From positions 1-64,000 of the forward strand of contig JAIYCR010000018.1 in the NCBI GenBank assembly GCA_027487905.1: 64,000 nt of DNA. The letters are read 5' to 3'. Each line of letters begins with the position of its first letter. Position 1 is the stretch's first letter. The notes beneath the pieces were generated by a model. The model saw only the letters and a list, made by a program, of their open reading frames with translations, ran no database searches and was not told the origin of the DNA. Made by a program: the position numbers and the translations under genes. Of the stretch, positions 22,104 to 29,583 are shown one piece after another. This DNA comes from Rubrivivax sp. Its GTDB lineage: Bacteria; Pseudomonadota; Gammaproteobacteria; Burkholderiales; Burkholderiaceae_C.

Positions 22104-25100
22104 TCACGGCCAGGGCAGCCGCACCTCGCGCACCGCGGCACCGCTGCCCAGCGCGCCGAAGTCGCCCGAAACCACCGGGGCACCCCAGTTCACGCCGTCC
22201 GCGCTCAGATAGAAGCGGAACTGCGCGATGGTGCCGTTGGTCATGCCGTCCTGACGGGGCAGGTAGCGCAAGCCGCCCAGCGCCTGGGCACTGCCCAGAT
22301 CCACGGTGAAGCTGTGCGGTGGCCGTGGCGTGGTCCCGCTCCATTGCGTGTGCCAGAGGGTGGTGGTCGATGCATCGATGGCGTTGCCCGCCGCGCCCGG
22401 CTCGCCCACCACTTCCTGGCTGCTCGCACTGGCGATCCAGCCCGCGCGCGGCAGTGGCGCGCCCGTGGGCCCTAGCAGCTGGAAATCGGCCATCGAAGCC
22501 CAGGGACCGCCGTTCACCTCGGTGATCTGCTCCAGGCGGACCCAGCGCGCACTCCGGCCGGCCGACACGGGCGCGGCAGCCACCGTCCAGCCGAAGGCGG
22601 CGGTCGTGGCGGATCCGCCGAACCCATCTGCAACCGTCACTTGAACACTGAAGCCTCCCGGGGCGAGCGGCGCGCCGCTGATGACGCCGGTGGTGGGCGA
22701 CATCACCAGCCCCGGGGGCAGGCCCGTGGCACTGAAGCTCAGGGGCTGGCCGTCCGGGTCGCTCGCCGACAGGGCGAGGCTGGCCGGAACGCCCACCGTG
22801 CCGGTCTGTGCGGCGGGGGTGAGCACGGCGGGGGGACGGTTCGCCGGAGGCGGCCCGACGGTGAAGCGGACTTCCTTCAGAGCCGCCGGCGCCCCGAGGG
22901 CGGAGAAGTCGCCAGAGGCCACCGGGCTGCCCCAGGCCACGCCGTCGTTGCTCAGGTAGAAGCGGAACTGCGCGATGGTCCCGTTGGTCGAGCCGTCCTG
23001 GCGGGGCAGGTAACGCAAGCCCCCAAGGGACTGCGGGCTGCCCAGATCGACGACGAAGCTGTGCGGCGGCCGGGGCGTCGCCCCGCTCCATTGGGTGTGC
23101 CAGAGGCTAGCCGTCGAACCGTCCACCGCATTGGCCGCAGCGCCCGGTTCTCCCACCAGTTCCTGGCTGCTGGCGCTGGCCACCCACCCCGTGCGCGGCA
23201 GAACCGCGCCGGTCGGCGAGAGCAGGCTGAATTCGGCCATCGAGCCCCACGGTCCGCCGTTGACCTCGGTGAGCTGCTCCAGGCGAACGAAGCGGAACCG
23301 GCCATCGCCCGTGCCGGTGCCGGGCGGCGCCGGTGCGACGCTTTCCTCGCTCCCGATCTGCCGCAGGTAGTCCGCCAGCCGCGCGAGGTCGGCTGTGGAG
23401 AGCGCGGCAATGGCCACCGCGTTGGGAACCGTCGCCGCGGTGTGCGCGCGGATGGCCGCCTCCACCGTGGGCGCCGACCCGTCATGCAGATAGGGGGCGG
23501 TCGCCCACAGGTCGCGCAGCGTCGGCGTGTCCAGCCCGGTCAGCGGCTGTCCGAGCCGGCTTCCGCTGGACGCCTTCAGCGTGCCGACATCGGTCAGCAC
23601 AGGCGGCAGGGACGACCGGGCGAAGGTCGCTCCGGCGTGGCAGGAGGCGCAGTTCAGGTTCTGGAAGAGCGTGCGCCCGGCCTGCGCGGAAGCCGTCAGG
23701 CTGCGGTCGGCATTGCGAAGCGGGCTGGGCTCCACACGTTCGAGCGAGGCGACATAGGCGGCCAATGCATCCAGATCGGCACTCACCCCGGCCTTGGCCA
23801 GGCCCAGGGGCTGCGCGCGGGTGCCAGTGGCCAGCGCTGCATCGGCCATCAGGCCCGTGCCGCCGGCGAGCGCGCGGATCTGGGCCTCGAAGTCCTGCAG
23901 CTCGTCGAAGTTGCCGCTCCAGTGCAAGGCGCCGTGGGCCATGCCGGCGCGACCCTGGAGCGCCGCCGTGTTGCGCAAGCCTTCGCCCAGGGAGCTGAAA
24001 TCCCAGACCCGGCCGTCGTGGCCGCCGTCGCGGTGACAGCTCGCGCAACTCATGTAGCTGTCGCGCGACAGGCGCGGGTCGAGCGCGTCGTGGAACAGGC
24101 GCTTGCCGTTGAGAACCTGCGCGCTGAGCCGCTCGGCGCCGACGGTGGCGACACTGGCCAGCACCGGCAGCACCGGCTCGCCGAAGTTCACCAGTCGGGA
24201 CAGATCCACCACGCTGACGGTGCGCTCCATGAAGTTGGACACGTACAGCCGCTGACCATTGGGCGACACCGCCAGACCCTGCGGCGCCCGGCCCACCGGG
24301 ATGCGCAGCAGCTCGCGCCGCCCGACCGGATCGACCACCGCGACCTGCCGGCTGGTTTCCAGCGCCACGAAGAGGTAGGCGCCGCTCGGGTGATGGACGG
24401 CCGCGCTGGCCACGCTCGAGTTGTCGTGGTCGACGCGGGCCGCAGCGTCCTCCAGCGGTGGCCCGGCGGGGGTAAGGTCCAGTCGCGAACTCACCGCGCG
24501 CACCGTGTTCTGGAAGTCCAGCGCCAGGCCGTCGCGCAGGCTGCCGCGGCGGATGTTGTCCTGCTTGGACGGCACCCACGCCGAGCGACCGTCCGGCGCC
24601 AGCGCCACCGCGCCCAGGTAGTTCGGGATGCCACGGCCCTGCACGCTGCTGTCGGGGCGTTCGCTGTGGCGCAGCACCGCGGTGCCCTGCACCGTGAAGC
24701 TGGCGGTCAGCACCGAGACGACCTGGCCACCGCGGGTGGGCGAGACATCCACGGTCGCCGTGCCCTCGCCAGGCAGTGGCGGGGTGATGAAGCGCGACAC
24801 CAGCACCCGCGCACCGTCGGCGGTCACCGACACCTGGCGGGGATGAGGGCCCACCGGCAGGCGAGGCCCGAGGCTGCGATCGGCGTTGATCCGCAGCAGT
24901 TCGCCCGGGCCGTCCAGCGCCACGTAGGCCCGGCCATCGGGCGCGAAGGCAATGCCATGGGGCTGGCTGGCTGGCGGCAGGGCCAGGGTCTGGGCCACGC
25001 TCAGACCGCCCTGGAAGATGCTGATGGTGGCTGCGTCCCGGTTGACCACCCAGACCCAGCCGTTCGGCGCCAGCGCCAGGCTGGCGGGCCCCGCGCCGGT

Positions 25101-28100
25101 GGCGATTTCGGCCAGCCGGGTGTTGGTCGCGGCATCGAGCACCGCCACCGTGCCGTTGTCCGGGTTGACGGCCCACACCCGGGCGTTGCCCGTCGCCCGG
25201 GGCTCGAAGGCCACCGTGCTCGACATCGAGGCGCGGCCTGCTGCCACGGGCGGGCCCACCGCCTGCGTGAACACGCGGGTGGTCTGGGCACCACTGGAGG
25301 CGCGCACCGTGAGGCTCACGGTGTAGAGGCCGGGCGCCGCGTAGGTGCGGCTCGCACTGGCCGAGGCGGTGAAGGCGGTGGTCGGCGAGCCGTCCCCGAA
25401 ATTCCAGGCATAGACAAGCCCGGTGCCGGTGGCGCTTGCGGTGTAGGTCACCGCCGTCCCGGCAAGGGCGATAGGCGCGGCCACCGGCTGGATCACCGGG
25501 GCGCTCGAGGCGGCGATGGTCCACGAGAAGGACGCCGTCGACGCCGTGCCGCCCTGCCCATCGCTGGCGCTGATCACGACGCTGCGCACGCCCGCCGTGG
25601 TCGGGGTGCCGGAGATCAGCCCGGTCGCCGGGGCCATGCCCAGCCCGGGCGGCAAGCCGCTGGCCGACCAGCTCAGGGGCTGGCCGTCGGGGTCGCTCCC
25701 GGCCGGCTGAAGCGACAGGGGCACGCCAACGGTTCCCGACTGCGAGCCCGGCGTCACCAGCACCGGCGGCCGGTTGACCGGCGCCGCGCCGGCGAAGCGG
25801 ATCTCCTTGACCGAGGCAGGCACGCCCAGCGTGCTGAAGTCGCCGCTGGCCACCGGTGCACTCCAGTTGATGCCATCGCTGCTCAGGCGCACCGCGAAGC
25901 GGGCGAAGCTGCCGTTGGGCATGCCGTCCTGCCGCGGCAGGTAGCGCAAGCCGCCCAGCCCCCGCACGCTGCCCAGGTCGACGGTCAACCAGTGCGGCGG
26001 GGCCGCGATCGGCGCCGACCAGCGCGAGTGCCACAGCGTGAGGGGCGAACCGTCCAGCGCATTGGCGGCCAGCCCGTTCTCGCCGATGGACTCCTGGCTG
26101 CTGGCGCTGGCGACGAAACCCGCCCGGGGCATCGGCGTGAAGCTGCCGTCCAGCAGTTCGAGCTCGGCCATCGAGGCCCAGGGCTCGCCGTTCACCTCGC
26201 TGAGCTGCTCGAGCCGGAGGTAACGGGCACTGAGCCCGCCCCCGCCACTGCCGCTGCCGCTGACCCGCCAGATGAAATCGGTGCTCGTGCGGCCGCTCGC
26301 GTTCTGCGCGAACACCGTGACCGAATACGTGCCGCCCGCCGTCGGCACACCGGTGATAGCCCCAGTGGATGCGTTGACCGCCATGCCCGGAGGAAGACCG
26401 GTGGCCGAGAAGGACGACGCGAGCGGGCCGGTCGAGCGGATCGTCGCGGTGGCGGCGATGGCCACAGAGCTCGTCAGATCGGCCATCGGGTCGACCAGGG
26501 GCACGCTGCCGCCGCCGATGCGCACGGTCCGGGCCAGCGAGGGCACGCCTTCGCCGTTCAGGGCGAAGAGCATGTACTGGCCCGGCACCGCGATGCCGGG
26601 GTTGGAAGGGGCGTCCAGCACGTAGCTGTTGCCGCTCGCCGAGCGGATGGTCAGGGGGACTCGCCGCTGATCGTTGGCCACGGTGTGGGTCACCGACGAC
26701 AGGCGGATCAGGACGAAGCTGGCCGCCGGCGAATCCGTGCTCACGTTCAGCGCCGCGCCGAACTCGGCCTGCGTGGGCGCCGCGGTGATCCGCGGCCGAA
26801 CCGCCGGCGTGCCGTCGTCGTTGAGCAGGTAGTGGGGGGTCAGCACCTGGGCTCGCGGCTGGTCGGCCGCGCAGCCACACAGGCCGCTGCCGGCAGACAG
26901 CACGCGCGCGTCGGGCATCAGGATGGCCACGCCGTGGTAGGTGCGCGGCACGCTCATGGGCGGCAGGGGCGTGAAGGTCTCGGTGCGCGGGTTCCACAGT
27001 TCGGGCACGAGGCGGGCACCGTCGTCGTTGAAGGCGTCGGAGCGGTCCTTGCCGCCGATCACCAGCACTTCGCCGGAGGGCAGCACCACGCTGTTGTGGA
27101 ACACGCGGGTGAAGGCCATGCCGGGAACCCGGCGCACACTCAGTTCGGCGCGTGCGTCGATGACGAAGGCGCTGGCGGTGGCTGGCGATGCGACGTACTC
27201 ACGGGCGCCACCGGTCACCAGGATGCGACCGGGCTCGAACATTGCGGCCGAGCCCTGCATCGCATCCACGTCATCGGCACGCCGCCCGGCCGGCGTGACC
27301 AGCCCGTTGCCGGCGGTGCTGATCCAGTGCAGGTTGGCGCTGGGTCCGGCGTGCAACACCCGGCCGTTGCCAGTGGGGAACAACCACATGTGGTTGTCGC
27401 TGCGGTAGGGCCCACCGCTGTCGGCCGTCAGGAAGGGCGCCACCGGAACTCCGGTCAGCCGTCGCCACCCGGCGCCCTCGGTCCAGACTTCACCGTCCTT
27501 GCCACCCACCCCGCCGTTCCACGATCCGCCCAGCGTGAGCACGCCGCCATCGCGCAGCAGCGTGTTCGCCTGGTAGGCGCGCGGCAGGTTCATCGGCGTG
27601 CCGCCGGCCTGGGTCCAGGCGTCGGTGGCCGGGTTGTACAGGCTCGTCACGCGGCTGGTCGAACCGCCGCTCACCAGCAGGCGACCATCGGGCAGATTGG
27701 TGGTGCCGGGGCAGAACAGGGTGTGACCGACCGCCTGGGTCCGCGGCGCCGTGGCCGTTGCTGTGGCCGGATCGAACAAGGCGGTCCAGGTGGGGACGCC
27801 GGGCGAGGTCTCGCCCATCGCGCTGAAGCCGAAGCGGTTCTCCGCCGACCACAGCAGGACCCGACCGGCGCCATCTCCAGAGCCATTGGCCACATTGGCG
27901 GCGGCCGCCGGCACGAAGCCGAGGTCCACCGGGGCGGACCAGCGAGCCTGGGCGGGCACGGCGAGGGCCAGACGCTGCAGTCGACCGTCACCGGAGGCAC
28001 CGGCCGCTTCTGAGGGTGCGTCGGCCCCGCCGCCGCAGGCCGCCAGCACCGACAACAGCAACACAGCCGGGGCCCGCAGCACGGCGACCGGCAGGCGCGC

Positions 28101-28151
28101 GAGCCTGGCCAGGTGTCGAGTCCTCCGGGCGGGCGCCGTTTCGAATGACAT
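22104..28151 (-). CDS. Multidomain lipoprotein: galactose-oxidase-type copper radical oxidase fused to discoidin-like modules, beta-propeller and di-haem peroxidase-like domain
   Basis: A 2015-residue precursor with lipobox LAAC (C39). The start ATG 28151 has an AGGGAG site upstream. Residues about 70-560 align closely with fungal galactose oxidase. The radical-copper set is complete: C147 (LFCPG) and Y193 (PRAYQ) for the thioether cofactor, W211 (GGSWNGG), and copper ligands Y193, Y405-H406 (RTYHG) and H489 (VTHTV). Then follow an Ig-like module, discoidin-like repeat 1 (about 643-786), another Ig-like and a PKD module (to about 970), and a YVTN-type beta-propeller (about 970-1325). A di-haem cytochrome c peroxidase/MauG-like domain has CxxCH at 1369-1373 and 1501-1505 and the TLRDLWATAPYLHDGSA block. 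Discoidin-like repeats 2 and 3 (about 1616-1764 and 1869-2015) flank another Ig-like module. The oxidase would release H2O2 at the cell surface, where the haem domain could use it. The substrate is unknown. Confidence 0.82.
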   Translation of the reverse strand: MSFETAPARRTRHLARLARLPVAVLRAPAVLLLSVLAACGGGADAPSEAAGASGDGRLQRLALAVPAQARWSAPVDLGFVPAAAANVANGSGDGAGRVLLWSAENRFGFSAMGETSPGVPTWTALFDPATATATAPRTQAVGHTLFCPGTTNLPDGRLLVSGGSTSRVTSLYNPATDAWTQAGGTPMNLPRAYQANTLLRDGGVLTLGGSWNGGVGGKDGEVWTEGAGWRRLTGVPVAPFLTADSGGPYRSDNHMWLFPTGNGRVLHAGPSANLHWISTAGNGLVTPAGRRADDVDAMQGSAAMFEPGRILVTGGAREYVASPATASAFVIDARAELSVRRVPGMAFTRVFHNSVVLPSGEVLVIGGKDRSDAFNDDGARLVPELWNPRTETFTPLPPMSVPRTYHGVAILMPDARVLSAGSGLCGCAADQPRAQVLTPHYLLNDDGTPAVRPRITAAPTQAEFGAALNVSTDSPAASFVLIRLSSVTHTVANDQRRVPLTIRSASGNSYVLDAPSNPGIAVPGQYMLFALNGEGVPSLARTVRIGGGSVPLVDPMADLTSSVAIAATATIRSTGPLASSFSATGLPPGMAVNASTGAITGVPTAGGTYSVTVFAQNASGRTSTDFIWRVSGSGSGGGGLSARYLRLEQLSEVNGEPWASMAELELLDGSFTPMPRAGFVASASSQESIGENGLAANALDGSPLTLWHSRWSAPIAAPPHWLTVDLGSVRGLGGLRYLPRQDGMPNGSFARFAVRLSSDGINWSAPVASGDFSTLGVPASVKEIRFAGAAPVNRPPVLVTPGSQSGTVGVPLSLQPAGSDPDGQPLSWSASGLPPGLGMAPATGLISGTPTTAGVRSVVISASDGQGGTASTASFSWTIAASSAPVIQPVAAPIALAGTAVTYTASATGTGLVYAWNFGDGSPTTAFTASASASRTYAAPGLYTVSLTVRASSGAQTTRVFTQAVGPPVAAGRASMSSTVAFEPRATGNARVWAVNPDNGTVAVLDAATNTRLAEIATGAGPASLALAPNGWVWVVNRDAATISIFQGGLSVAQTLALPPASQPHGIAFAPDGRAYVALDGPGELLRINADRSLGPRLPVGPHPRQVSVTADGARVLVSRFITPPLPGEGTATVDVSPTRGGQVVSVLTASFTVQGTAVLRHSERPDSSVQGRGIPNYLGAVALAPDGRSAWVPSKQDNIRRGSLRDGLALDFQNTVRAVSSRLDLTPAGPPLEDAAARVDHDNSSVASAAVHHPSGAYLFVALETSRQVAVVDPVGRRELLRIPVGRAPQGLAVSPNGQRLYVSNFMERTVSVVDLSRLVNFGEPVLPVLASVATVGAERLSAQVLNGKRLFHDALDPRLSRDSYMSCASCHRDGGHDGRVWDFSSLGEGLRNTAALQGRAGMAHGALHWSGNFDELQDFEAQIRALAGGTGLMADAALATGTRAQPLGLAKAGVSADLDALAAYVASLERVEPSPLRNADRSLTASAQAGRTLFQNLNCASCHAGATFARSSLPPVLTDVGTLKASSGSRLGQPLTGLDTPTLRDLWATAPYLHDGSAPTVEAAIRAHTAATVPNAVAIAALSTADLARLADYLRQIGSEESVAPAPPGTGTGDGRFRFVRLEQLTEVNGGPWGSMAEFSLLSPTGAVLPRTGWVASASSQELVGEPGAAANAVDGSTASLWHTQWSGATPRPPHSFVVDLGSPQSLGGLRYLPRQDGSTNGTIAQFRFYLSNDGVAWGSPVASGDFSALGAPAALKEVRFTVGPPPANRPPAVLTPAAQTGTVGVPASLALSASDPDGQPLSFSATGLPPGLVMSPTTGVISGAPLAPGGFSVQVTVADGFGGSATTAAFGWTVAAAPVSAGRSARWVRLEQITEVNGGPWASMADFQLLGPTGAPLPRAGWIASASSQEVVGEPGAAGNAIDASTTTLWHTQWSGTTPRPPHSFTVDLGSAQALGGLRYLPRQDGMTNGTIAQFRFYLSADGVNWGAPVVSGDFGALGSGAAVREVRLPWP
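22107..23305 (-). repeat. Intragenic direct repeats encoding discoidin-like modules
   Basis: Two approximately 440-bp copies (about 22107-22545 and 22865-23305) are highly similar at the DNA level, with long identical runs. A more diverged third copy lies at about 25795-26225. All encode a module starting RLEQ(L/I)(T/S)EVNG and containing GGLRYLPRQDG. They arose by duplication within the gene. Confidence 0.8.
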
Positions 28152-28260
28152 CCTGTTGCTCCCTGGGGGCTCGGTGGCCGGACGGCGGACGATCGAAGTC
28201 ACCGAATCTACGGCCGACGGCACGCTGATTGCCGGGCGGCTCGTTTGTCTGCAGGAGAAA

Positions 28261-28280: not shown

Positions 28281-28351
28281 TTACGGTTTGTTGCGATTGA
28301 CATCGACCGACGTTGCGCGAATGGTCCGCGGCGTCTTGTCGCGACCCGTCG

Positions 28352-28963
28352 ATGCCACCCGCCTCCCACCCCGCTTCGGCCGCTGTTCCCCCCTCGCCGC
28401 GCCCCCGGCCCGACGATTCGGGCGGCTTCACGCGCGGGTACAGCGCCCGCCGCGCCTTGGCCGCATCCCTGGCGGTGATGCTCTGCTGGACGATGCCCGG
28501 GCCGACGAAGGCTCAGGCCTCAGCGTCGGCATCGGCATCGGCATCGGCATCGGCATCGGCATCGGCCATCCAGGGGCGCCTGCTCTTCGAAGGCGACACG
28601 CCGCTGAGCGGACGCATCCGGGGCCATGTCGACGCGCTGCCACCGGCCAGCATCAGGTGCGTGAACTGCCACGTCCGAGCGTCCGAGGCCGCCGCGCTGC
28701 GCGCCCGGGCAAACGCCCCCGCCACGACGCAGGGCTTCGGCCCGCCGCTGGACGGGCCCATGCTGGCCGAACCGCGCCCCCGACGCGGCGGTCCGCCCAG
28801 CGCCTACGATGCACGGCGCCTGTGCACCGCCCTGCGCGAAGGGCTGGACCCGAACCATGTCCGCATGGCGCGCAACATGCCGATCTACCAGTTGTCGGAC
28901 CGGGACTGCGACCACCTCTGGGCCTATCTCGCCGGCAGACCGACGCTGCAGGCCAGACCATGA
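28352..28963 (+). CDS. Small secreted c-type cytochrome with hexapeptide-type Ser-Ala repeat
   Basis: About 203 residues from ATG 28352; an ATG further upstream at 28313 or downstream at 28478 is possible. A hydrophobic signal segment (RALAASLAVMLCWTM) is followed by a Ser-Ala repeat, then a domain with one haem motif CVNCH. The C-terminal IYQLSDRDCDHLWAYLAGRP helix is like those of class I cytochromes, with Met residues (RMARNM) available as haem ligand. The gene is coupled to a SCO-type copper chaperone (4-bp overlap) and divergent from the copper radical oxidase fusion. It may be that enzyme's electron partner; this is an inference from position. Confidence 0.72.
   Translation: MPPASHPASAAVPPSPRPRPDDSGGFTRGYSARRALAASLAVMLCWTMPGPTKAQASASASASASASASASAIQGRLLFEGDTPLSGRIRGHVDALPPASIRCVNCHVRASEAAALRARANAPATTQGFGPPLDGPMLAEPRPRRGGPPSAYDARRLCTALREGLDPNHVRMARNMPIYQLSDRDCDHLWAYLAGRPTLQARP
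28526..28567 (+). repeat. In-frame hexanucleotide microsatellite (TCGGCA)n
   Basis: Six perfect TCGGCA units plus a seventh imperfect copy encode alternating Ser-Ala just after the signal peptide of the cytochrome. Unit gain or loss would change linker length without shifting frame. Confidence 0.9.
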
Positions 28964-29583
28964 TGAACCGCCGCCGCTGGGTCGCAGGCGCCGCGCTGGC
29001 TGCGGCAGCCGCGGCACGCAGCCCTGCCCAGGCCCGAATCCCCAGCGCTGAAAGCGCGCAGCTTGCACCGCCCCACGCCGATTTCGGCCCCGTCGTCCCG
29101 CCGCGGCCCGCGCCGGCGTTACCGGTTCGCACGTCCACCTCGCAGGACACCGATCTCCCCCGGCTGCTTGAGGGCAGAGCCTGTGCTGTCCAGCTGATGT
29201 TCACCGGCTGCAGCGCCACCTGCCCCATCCAGGGAGCGGTCTTCGCCGACACGGCCCGCCGACTGTCCGCGGCCGGGCTGGAGGAGCGCTCGGTTCGCCT
29301 GCTGTCCCTGAGCATCGACCCGCTCGGCGACTCACCAGCCGCCCTGCATGCCTGGTTGCGCCAGCATGGGGGGAGCCCTCTGTGGATGGCAGCCGTCCCG
29401 CGACGCGCCGACGGTGGTCGGCGAATGCTCGATTTCCTGAGGGCAGGCCGGCCCGGGCCGGACCCTCACACCGGCCAGGTGCATGTCTTCGACCGCCAGG
29501 GCCGCTGGGTGTTCAAGAGCGCAGACCTGCCGTCCTCGCGCGAGATCGTCGGCTGGCTCGAGCGGGTGGCATCGCAGCGCTAG
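28960..29583 (+). CDS. SCO1/SenC/PrrC-like copper chaperone or thiol-disulfide protein
   Basis: A 207-residue exported thioredoxin-fold protein. The signal begins MMNRRRWVAGAALAAAAAA. The copper/redox motif CxxxC is in FTGCSATCPIQG, and a downstream histidine (PHTGQVHVFD) is placed like the third copper ligand of SCO proteins. It overlaps the cytochrome stop by 4 bp. SCO proteins normally deliver copper to cytochrome oxidase. In Streptomyces, Sco is also needed to mature the copper radical oxidase GlxA. The divergent oxidase makes that second role plausible here. No cytochrome oxidase genes are in the window. Confidence 0.82.
   Translation: MMNRRRWVAGAALAAAAAARSPAQARIPSAESAQLAPPHADFGPVVPPRPAPALPVRTSTSQDTDLPRLLEGRACAVQLMFTGCSATCPIQGAVFADTARRLSAAGLEERSVRLLSLSIDPLGDSPAALHAWLRQHGGSPLWMAAVPRRADGGRRMLDFLRAGRPGPDPHTGQVHVFDRQGRWVFKSADLPSSREIVGWLERVASQR

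Follow-up and report, generated by a model that had tools for sequence, protein, structure and literature searches.

A conserved bacterial fusion of a galactose oxidase-type copper radical oxidase domain with a propeller and a di-haem CCP/MauG-like domain

Background

To become fully active, copper radical oxidases depend on a one-electron oxidant, and usually it is the chemist who supplies one by adding horseradish peroxidase; to our knowledge, the natural activator of the bacterial enzymes is largely unknown. These oxidases produce hydrogen peroxide (H2O2), and in one fungal system the one-electron oxidation is carried out, through contact, by a dedicated peroxidase (PMC9770985). In Streptomyces, maturation of the copper radical oxidase GlxA requires the haem peroxidase DtpA together with a Sco protein (PMC4736821). 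Here we describe a gene of Rubrivivax sp. (assembly GCA_027487905.1, contig JAIYCR010000018.1, positions 1 to 64,000; this whole stretch of 64,000 nucleotides is called the window below) whose product carries an AA5 copper radical oxidase domain and, further along the same chain, a β-propeller followed by a di-haem domain of the CCP/MauG type. The combination recurs in many genomes and is a conserved architecture, not a chance fusion.

Domain architecture and conserved residues

The open reading frame spans positions 22104-28223 of the minus strand from a GTG start, and an in-frame ATG at 28151 yields a lipoprotein of 2015 amino acids (22104..28151). The order of domains is lipobox, AA5, immunoglobulin-like (Ig), discoidin, Ig, PKD, YVTN propeller, di-haem, discoidin, Ig and discoidin. 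Pfam recognizes, all above the curated cut-offs, GO-like_E_set, Kelch, F5/8-type-C (three times), He_PIG (three times), PKD, CCP_MauG and Cytochrom_C. An earlier note, made from the sequence alone, had listed six galactose oxidase active-site residues, two CxxCH motifs in a CCP/MauG-like domain with a β-propeller between oxidase and haems, and three discoidin-like modules. All of these are found, the six residues (C147, in HTLFCPG, Y193, W211, Y405, H406 and H489) exactly as claimed; the arrangement is borne out by Pfam with one refinement, in that the first discoidin sits between the oxidase and the propeller.

The AA5 domain (26517..27947, minus strand; residues 69-545) matches solved galactose oxidases across its full length, with E-values from 1e-160 to 1e-133 (best 1.5e-160), and shares 240 of 464 aligned positions (51.7%) with 9g43, the galactose oxidase of Pseudarthrobacter siccitolerans. 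This full-length homology supports a seven-bladed fold with a C-terminal E-set. Relatives whose AA5 domain is like that of the window are called GO-type below, and the types seen at loci L022 and L024 are called T22 and T24; a predicted model of the AA5 domain of a T24-type relative, not of the window's own, matches 5c86 (template modelling score 0.85) and 1gof. We checked 76 fused relatives residue by residue. The Cys and Tyr of the thioether pair (C147 and Y193) and the Tyr, Tyr, His and His that serve as copper ligands (Y193, Y405, H406 and H489) are invariant in 76/76, and the position of the stacking tryptophan, W211 (Fusarium W290), is kept in 33 of them. The window retains three of the galactose contacts of the Fusarium enzyme (D324, R330 and F464) but not Q326 and Q406, and these glutamines seem to be missing from the galactose-binding bacterial 9g8h as well. 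R330 is present in only 12 of 33 relatives; since it varies among those of GO-type, substrates probably vary. Against the NCBIfam equivalog for GlxA the window protein scores 108 bits, compared with a cut-off of 800.

The second half of the protein comprises the YVTN propeller (24183..25199, minus strand; about residues 985-1323), recognized by profile matches, an AlphaFold2 model and Foldseek, and the di-haem domain (23337..24122, minus strand; about residues 1344-1605), recognized by Pfam and sequence matches. The AlphaFold2 model of the two together, built on 51 sequences, has a mean predicted local distance difference test score of 88.4 and a predicted template modelling score (pTM) of 0.91. 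Its best Foldseek match in the PDB is hydrazine synthase beta (5c2v_B), in a ranking dominated by the propeller and not by the haem domain, while sequence comparison relates the haem part to hydrazine synthase gamma, CcpA-type peroxidases, MbnH and MauG. Hydrazine synthase beta-gamma has its propeller and di-haem domain in the same order; the window protein scores 59.7 bits for the hydrazine synthase fusion subunit, against an NCBIfam cut-off of 1250.

Both haem motifs read CASCH (haem 1, 24033..24047, residues 1369-1373; haem 2, 23637..23651, residues 1501-1505; both minus strand) and are conserved in all 85 relatives examined for this module. Among the same relatives H1556, E1390, E1417 and E1422 are present in 85/85, W1411 in 84/85 and Q1419 in 77/85; by sequence alone, W1411, Q1419, E1417 and E1422 are candidates for the bridging Trp and the distal Gln/Glu of haem 1. 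Glu1390 lies, in a manual alignment, near the place of CcpA His71, and haem 1 would therefore be five-coordinate and open to H2O2; with the invariant HW..NF.E.QDFE it seems to keep an open, peroxidase-type pocket. For the C-terminal haem, alignment to the CcpA-type structure 3o5c places the signature PTLRN..YPYFHDGS ahead of a Met 14 residues after its His. This Met we take to correspond to Met275, an axial ligand in Pseudomonas CcpA, since the spacing there between His261 and Met275 is likewise 14 residues. The same step from the His of the window's YxHDG motif leads to H1570, aligned to the CcpA Met, and 82 of the 85 relatives have His at this position, most of the exceptions having a small insertion with a His nearby. 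The window thus has not the Met of CcpA but His at the sixth-ligand place; haem 2 is predicted to be bis-His, and the Tyr haem ligand of MauG appears to be replaced by His.

Recurrence and evolution of the fusion

The earlier note had called for an architecture search across bacteria. We used an alignment of the propeller-haem part alone (A1) as the query against 84,980 species genomes; the 80 loci returned are the best 80 of 575 confirmed matches, seven of the nine sequences in the query alignment were themselves fused, and the relatives do not count as independent cases. In all of these loci whose contig extends far enough, an AA5 domain lies upstream in the same frame. The fusion was found in Burkholderiales, Steroidobacter, Methylophilaceae, the alphaproteobacteria Methylopila and Methylobrevis, Pseudomonadales, Verrucomicrobia and one metagenome-assembled genome of the Polyangiaceae, and neither half has lost its catalytic residues. 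At locus L051 a stop codon breaks the frame further downstream.

A second sampling proceeded by genome instead of by score, within the family, order and phylum of the window. Within the family, 33 of the 36 strong module matches adjoin the AA5 marker PF09118 (34 if a gene split over two contigs is counted), and, conversely, 35 of the 63 PF09118 genes carry the propeller-haem module. The order-level sample has two fused among nine module matches, the others including forms with an LVIVD-repeat domain and free-standing lipoproteins (L026 and L124); at the phylum level, two genomes carry the module, each with an AA5 domain encoded in frame with it. The free-standing propeller-di-haem lipoproteins come from three congeneric genomes, all of which encode two or three unlinked AA5 genes. 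The recurrence across phyla and in isolates rules out a chance or assembly-made fusion, and the retention of every copper ligand and every proximal haem ligand rules out a degenerate AA5 or haem domain. That the module is exclusive to AA5 is likewise ruled out, as LVIVD-type forms exist; in this sister architecture (L115-L119, L121-L123 and L025), an LVIVD-repeat domain is followed by Ig (Big_5), PKD, propeller and di-haem domains, with neither AA5 nor Sco.

In a tree of AA5 domains, the fused ones fall into separate clades (GO-type, Verrucomicrobial GO-type, T22 and T24) with unfused AA5 interspersed, so that the carriers of the module form three or four separate clades. In the tree of the module, where a number of the deep branchings have weak support, those linked to AA5 group together in a single clade (100) with the LVIVD forms outside it; the free-standing modules L026 and L124 nest within this clade, and the T24 modules nest among those of GO-type. 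Because T24-type AA5 thus rides on modules nested among GO-type ones, one AA5 was apparently replaced by another, and the simplest reading is that a single module lineage retained an AA5 partner while the AA5 was swapped for another AA5 type.

Two variant arrangements were also seen. L070 and G404:C1:318447-324005 hold a fusion of 2568 amino acids in which one AA5 domain is followed by two tandem propeller-di-haem modules with four CxxCH motifs. At L126 and G404:C2:505479-512717 there are three consecutive AA5 genes with the haem module fused to the last only, which suggests that the module could serve neighbours in trans.

The remaining parts of the protein are less constant. The signal sequence (28035..28151, minus strand) ends in the lipobox LAAC (Cys39; LSVLAAC at residues 33-39), and a lipobox-like motif was found in 50 of the 76 fused relatives. 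The other domains, assigned by Pfam and all on the minus strand, are discoidin (F5/8 type C) 1 (25782..26231; about residues 641-790), an Ig-like He_PIG/Big_9 domain (25539..25775; about residues 793-871), the PKD domain (25269..25505; about residues 883-961), discoidin 2 (22857..23297; about residues 1619-1765) and discoidin 3 (22107..22556; about residues 1866-2015). Carbohydrate-binding and Ig modules vary freely among the relatives (discoidin, PA14, AbfB), which leaves AA5 and propeller-haem as the two constant parts. The discoidins may plausibly bind a surface glycan.

Neighbouring genes

Divergently transcribed from the fusion gene is a gene for a secreted monohaem c-type cytochrome (28313..28963, plus strand; CVNCH; start uncertain). 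Pfam gives no match for it; its family, with the consensus C.NCH ... MPry ... C..LW, is conserved beside GO-type AA5. At 28530-28568 a hexamer repeat, (GGCATC)n, encodes Ala-Ser repeats right behind the signal sequence. The end of the cytochrome gene is overlapped by a gene for a SCO1/SenC-type copper chaperone (28960..29583, plus strand; CSATCP; Pfam PF02630, E-value 1.8e-7). All 28 proteobacterial GO-type fusions whose sequence runs on after the gene have the pair of cytochrome c and Sco genes alongside, and 16 of 17 T24-type fusions, with some of the T22 type, have Sco alone as a neighbour; CxxxCP is present in 44/44 of the neighbouring Sco proteins. No Sco was found near AA5-less LVIVD-type modules at eight loci.

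The link between AA5 and Sco in Burkholderia, where Gox genes lie beside sco, has already been noted, and the main text of the same paper makes no mention of a haem fusion or of a cytochrome c gene (PMC4736821); the link between AA5 and cytochrome c may be undescribed. In Paraburkholderia sprentiae, an unfused GO-type AA5 gene with cytochrome c and Sco adjoins an exopolysaccharide locus. The Verrucomicrobial fusions L097, L102, L107 and L109 (1800-2900 amino acids) have a separate di-haem MauG-like gene directly upstream on the same strand, in which Tyr takes the position of the sixth ligand (the sequence in L097 being APYMHDG...EHYNG).

Proposed function of the fused protein and alternative explanations

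From the domains, residues, conservation, fusion and gene neighbours described above we infer the following chemistry. The neighbouring Sco protein would supply copper, and the AA5 domain would form the Cys147-Tyr193 cofactor. Its substrate would be a primary alcohol or aldehyde, probably part of a glycan bound by the discoidins, and its oxidation would be coupled to reduction of O2 to H2O2. The peroxide would react at haem 1 of the CCP/MauG-like domain, and the oxidizing equivalents would be shared with haem 2. The high-valent iron could oxidize the copper site by one electron and so maintain the Cu(II)-radical form that is active, or could be re-reduced by the secreted cytochrome c so that H2O2 is removed, or both; activation of the copper site together with disposal of H2O2 is in our view the likeliest outcome. 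The protein would thus be a secreted, surface-attached lipoprotein in which a copper radical oxidase has its own built-in di-haem peroxidase, a proposal whose chances we judge to be evenly balanced. We favour it because the window protein unites on one chain the ingredients of the fungal and the Streptomyces systems. The earlier note had suggested that the di-haem domain consumes the H2O2 or helps to form the radical cofactor. The conserved fusion, the Sco gene alongside and the precedents lend strong support to the view that the two redox domains are functional partners; consumption of H2O2 and help in forming the cofactor are conjectural roles.

Several observations weigh against a built-in peroxidase. 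In a full-chain model of the compact relative L093 (1200 amino acids) the pTM is just 0.53, so that no fixed AA5-haem contact is predicted; no confident oxidase-haem interface was obtained, and the copper and haem sites may be far apart. About half of the AA5 genes in the window's family do without the module, which is therefore not essential for AA5, and the sister LVIVD form of the module occurs without AA5. In Burkholderia, Paraburkholderia, Cupriavidus and one relative (L147, L148, L149 and L151), cytochrome c and Sco also flank GO-type AA5 genes without a haem module, and hence track the copper oxidase and not the haem module. Neither is specific evidence for a peroxidase, and the case for the cytochrome as the specific donor to the di-haem domain is weakened.

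The main rival explanation is that the reduced copper site gives up its electrons through the haems to the secreted cytochrome c; the protein would then be a copper-radical alcohol dehydrogenase and not an oxidase. Cytochrome fusions turn other enzymes into dehydrogenases, as in cellobiose dehydrogenase and the quinohaemoprotein alcohol dehydrogenases, and such a role would suit both the association of the monohaem cytochrome with GO-type AA5, including AA5 that has no di-haem module, and the predicted His, not Met, on haem 2, a bis-His ligation of the electron-transfer type. The seemingly open, peroxidase-type haem 1, with Glu in place of the distal His71 of CcpA, argues in the other direction, as does the T24 branch, which shows no such cytochrome gene adjacent, and we regard electron transfer as fairly unlikely. 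A wider formulation, to which we accord a small though appreciable chance, is that either the two haems connect the enzyme to cytochrome c, so that it works as an alcohol dehydrogenase whose acceptor is haem and not O2, or its radical is restored by hole transfer over a long range, the source being a bis-Fe(IV) di-haem centre on the same chain. Alternatively, the haem domain might use the H2O2 on a second substrate (lignin-like aromatics, proteins or metals), with AA5 as the peroxide generator. The RoxA-like and MauG-like similarity of the C-terminal haem part and the variety of carbohydrate-binding modules, suggestive of solid substrates, are compatible with this possibility, which we consider improbable, as no conserved substrate site was recognized and no catalytic role is known for the propeller that adjoins the haem domain.

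It is also conceivable that the di-haem domain, acting in the manner of MauG or DtpA, helps to build the Cys-Tyr crosslink and is idle afterwards. MauG does build a protein-derived cofactor, whereas the crosslink of galactose oxidase forms with copper and O2 alone. The dependence of GlxA on DtpA and Sco at low copper (PMC4736821) speaks for such a role; the AA5 genes in the family that manage without the module, and the apparent loss of MauG's Tyr ligand, make it quite doubtful. Least probable, in our estimation, is that the domains are independent and joined on one scaffold merely for co-secretion to the same surface. Long flexible Ig/PKD linkers, the low whole-chain pTM and the AA5-less LVIVD forms would be expected of such an assembly, yet AA5 and propeller-haem stay constant while all other modules vary, and within the AA5-linked module clade AA5 is swapped for other AA5 types and not for unrelated enzymes.

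Should the built-in peroxidase prove correct, nature would appear to have met the need for an activator, in several bacterial lineages, by building a di-haem peroxidase into the oxidase chain itself; the question of activation could then be tested on one polypeptide, which would also offer a self-sufficient biocatalyst.

Comparison with known systems

The earlier note knew of no characterized enzyme with this order of domains, and this stands as far as the open-access literature shows, in which we found no published account of an AA5-di-haem fusion. The nearest record in the plasmid collection, the one annotated full-length relative there, is labelled only 'discoidin domain-containing protein'; the labels that come after it are 'hypothetical protein' and 'SCO family protein'.

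The AA5_2 galactose oxidases of Pseudarthrobacter siccitolerans (9g43/9g8h) and Fusarium (1gof) share the six active-site residues and also have discoidins; unlike the window protein, they have no haem domain, propeller or lipobox. The Burkholderia Gox genes beside sco resemble the window in that AA5 and Sco are neighbours. The GlxA-DtpA-Sco system of Streptomyces likewise combines a copper radical oxidase, a haem peroxidase and a Sco copper chaperone, but as separate proteins and with a mono-haem DyP in place of a di-haem CCP/MauG domain. In the fungal tandem of AlcOx and peroxidase (Colletotrichum, Magnaporthe), a dedicated haem peroxidase activates the copper radical oxidase by one-electron oxidation; there the partners are two proteins and the peroxidase is of class II with haem b, whereas the window has a single chain. 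With the CCP/MauG family (CcpA, MauG, MbnH) the window protein shares two covalent-type haem sites, a conserved candidate for the bridging Trp and the signature TPTLRD..APYLHDGS, and differs in having His at the ligand place of CcpA Met275 and in its fusion with a propeller and AA5. Hydrazine synthase beta-gamma (5c2v_B/C) also has a YVTN propeller beside a di-haem CCP/MauG domain; it lacks AA5, performs a different chemistry, and its propeller is 18% identical to that of the window. Both halves of the protein therefore belong to known families, and partnership between such an oxidase and a peroxidase is known as well; what is new, as far as we have checked, is a single-chain, widely conserved version with a partner of the CCP/MauG type.

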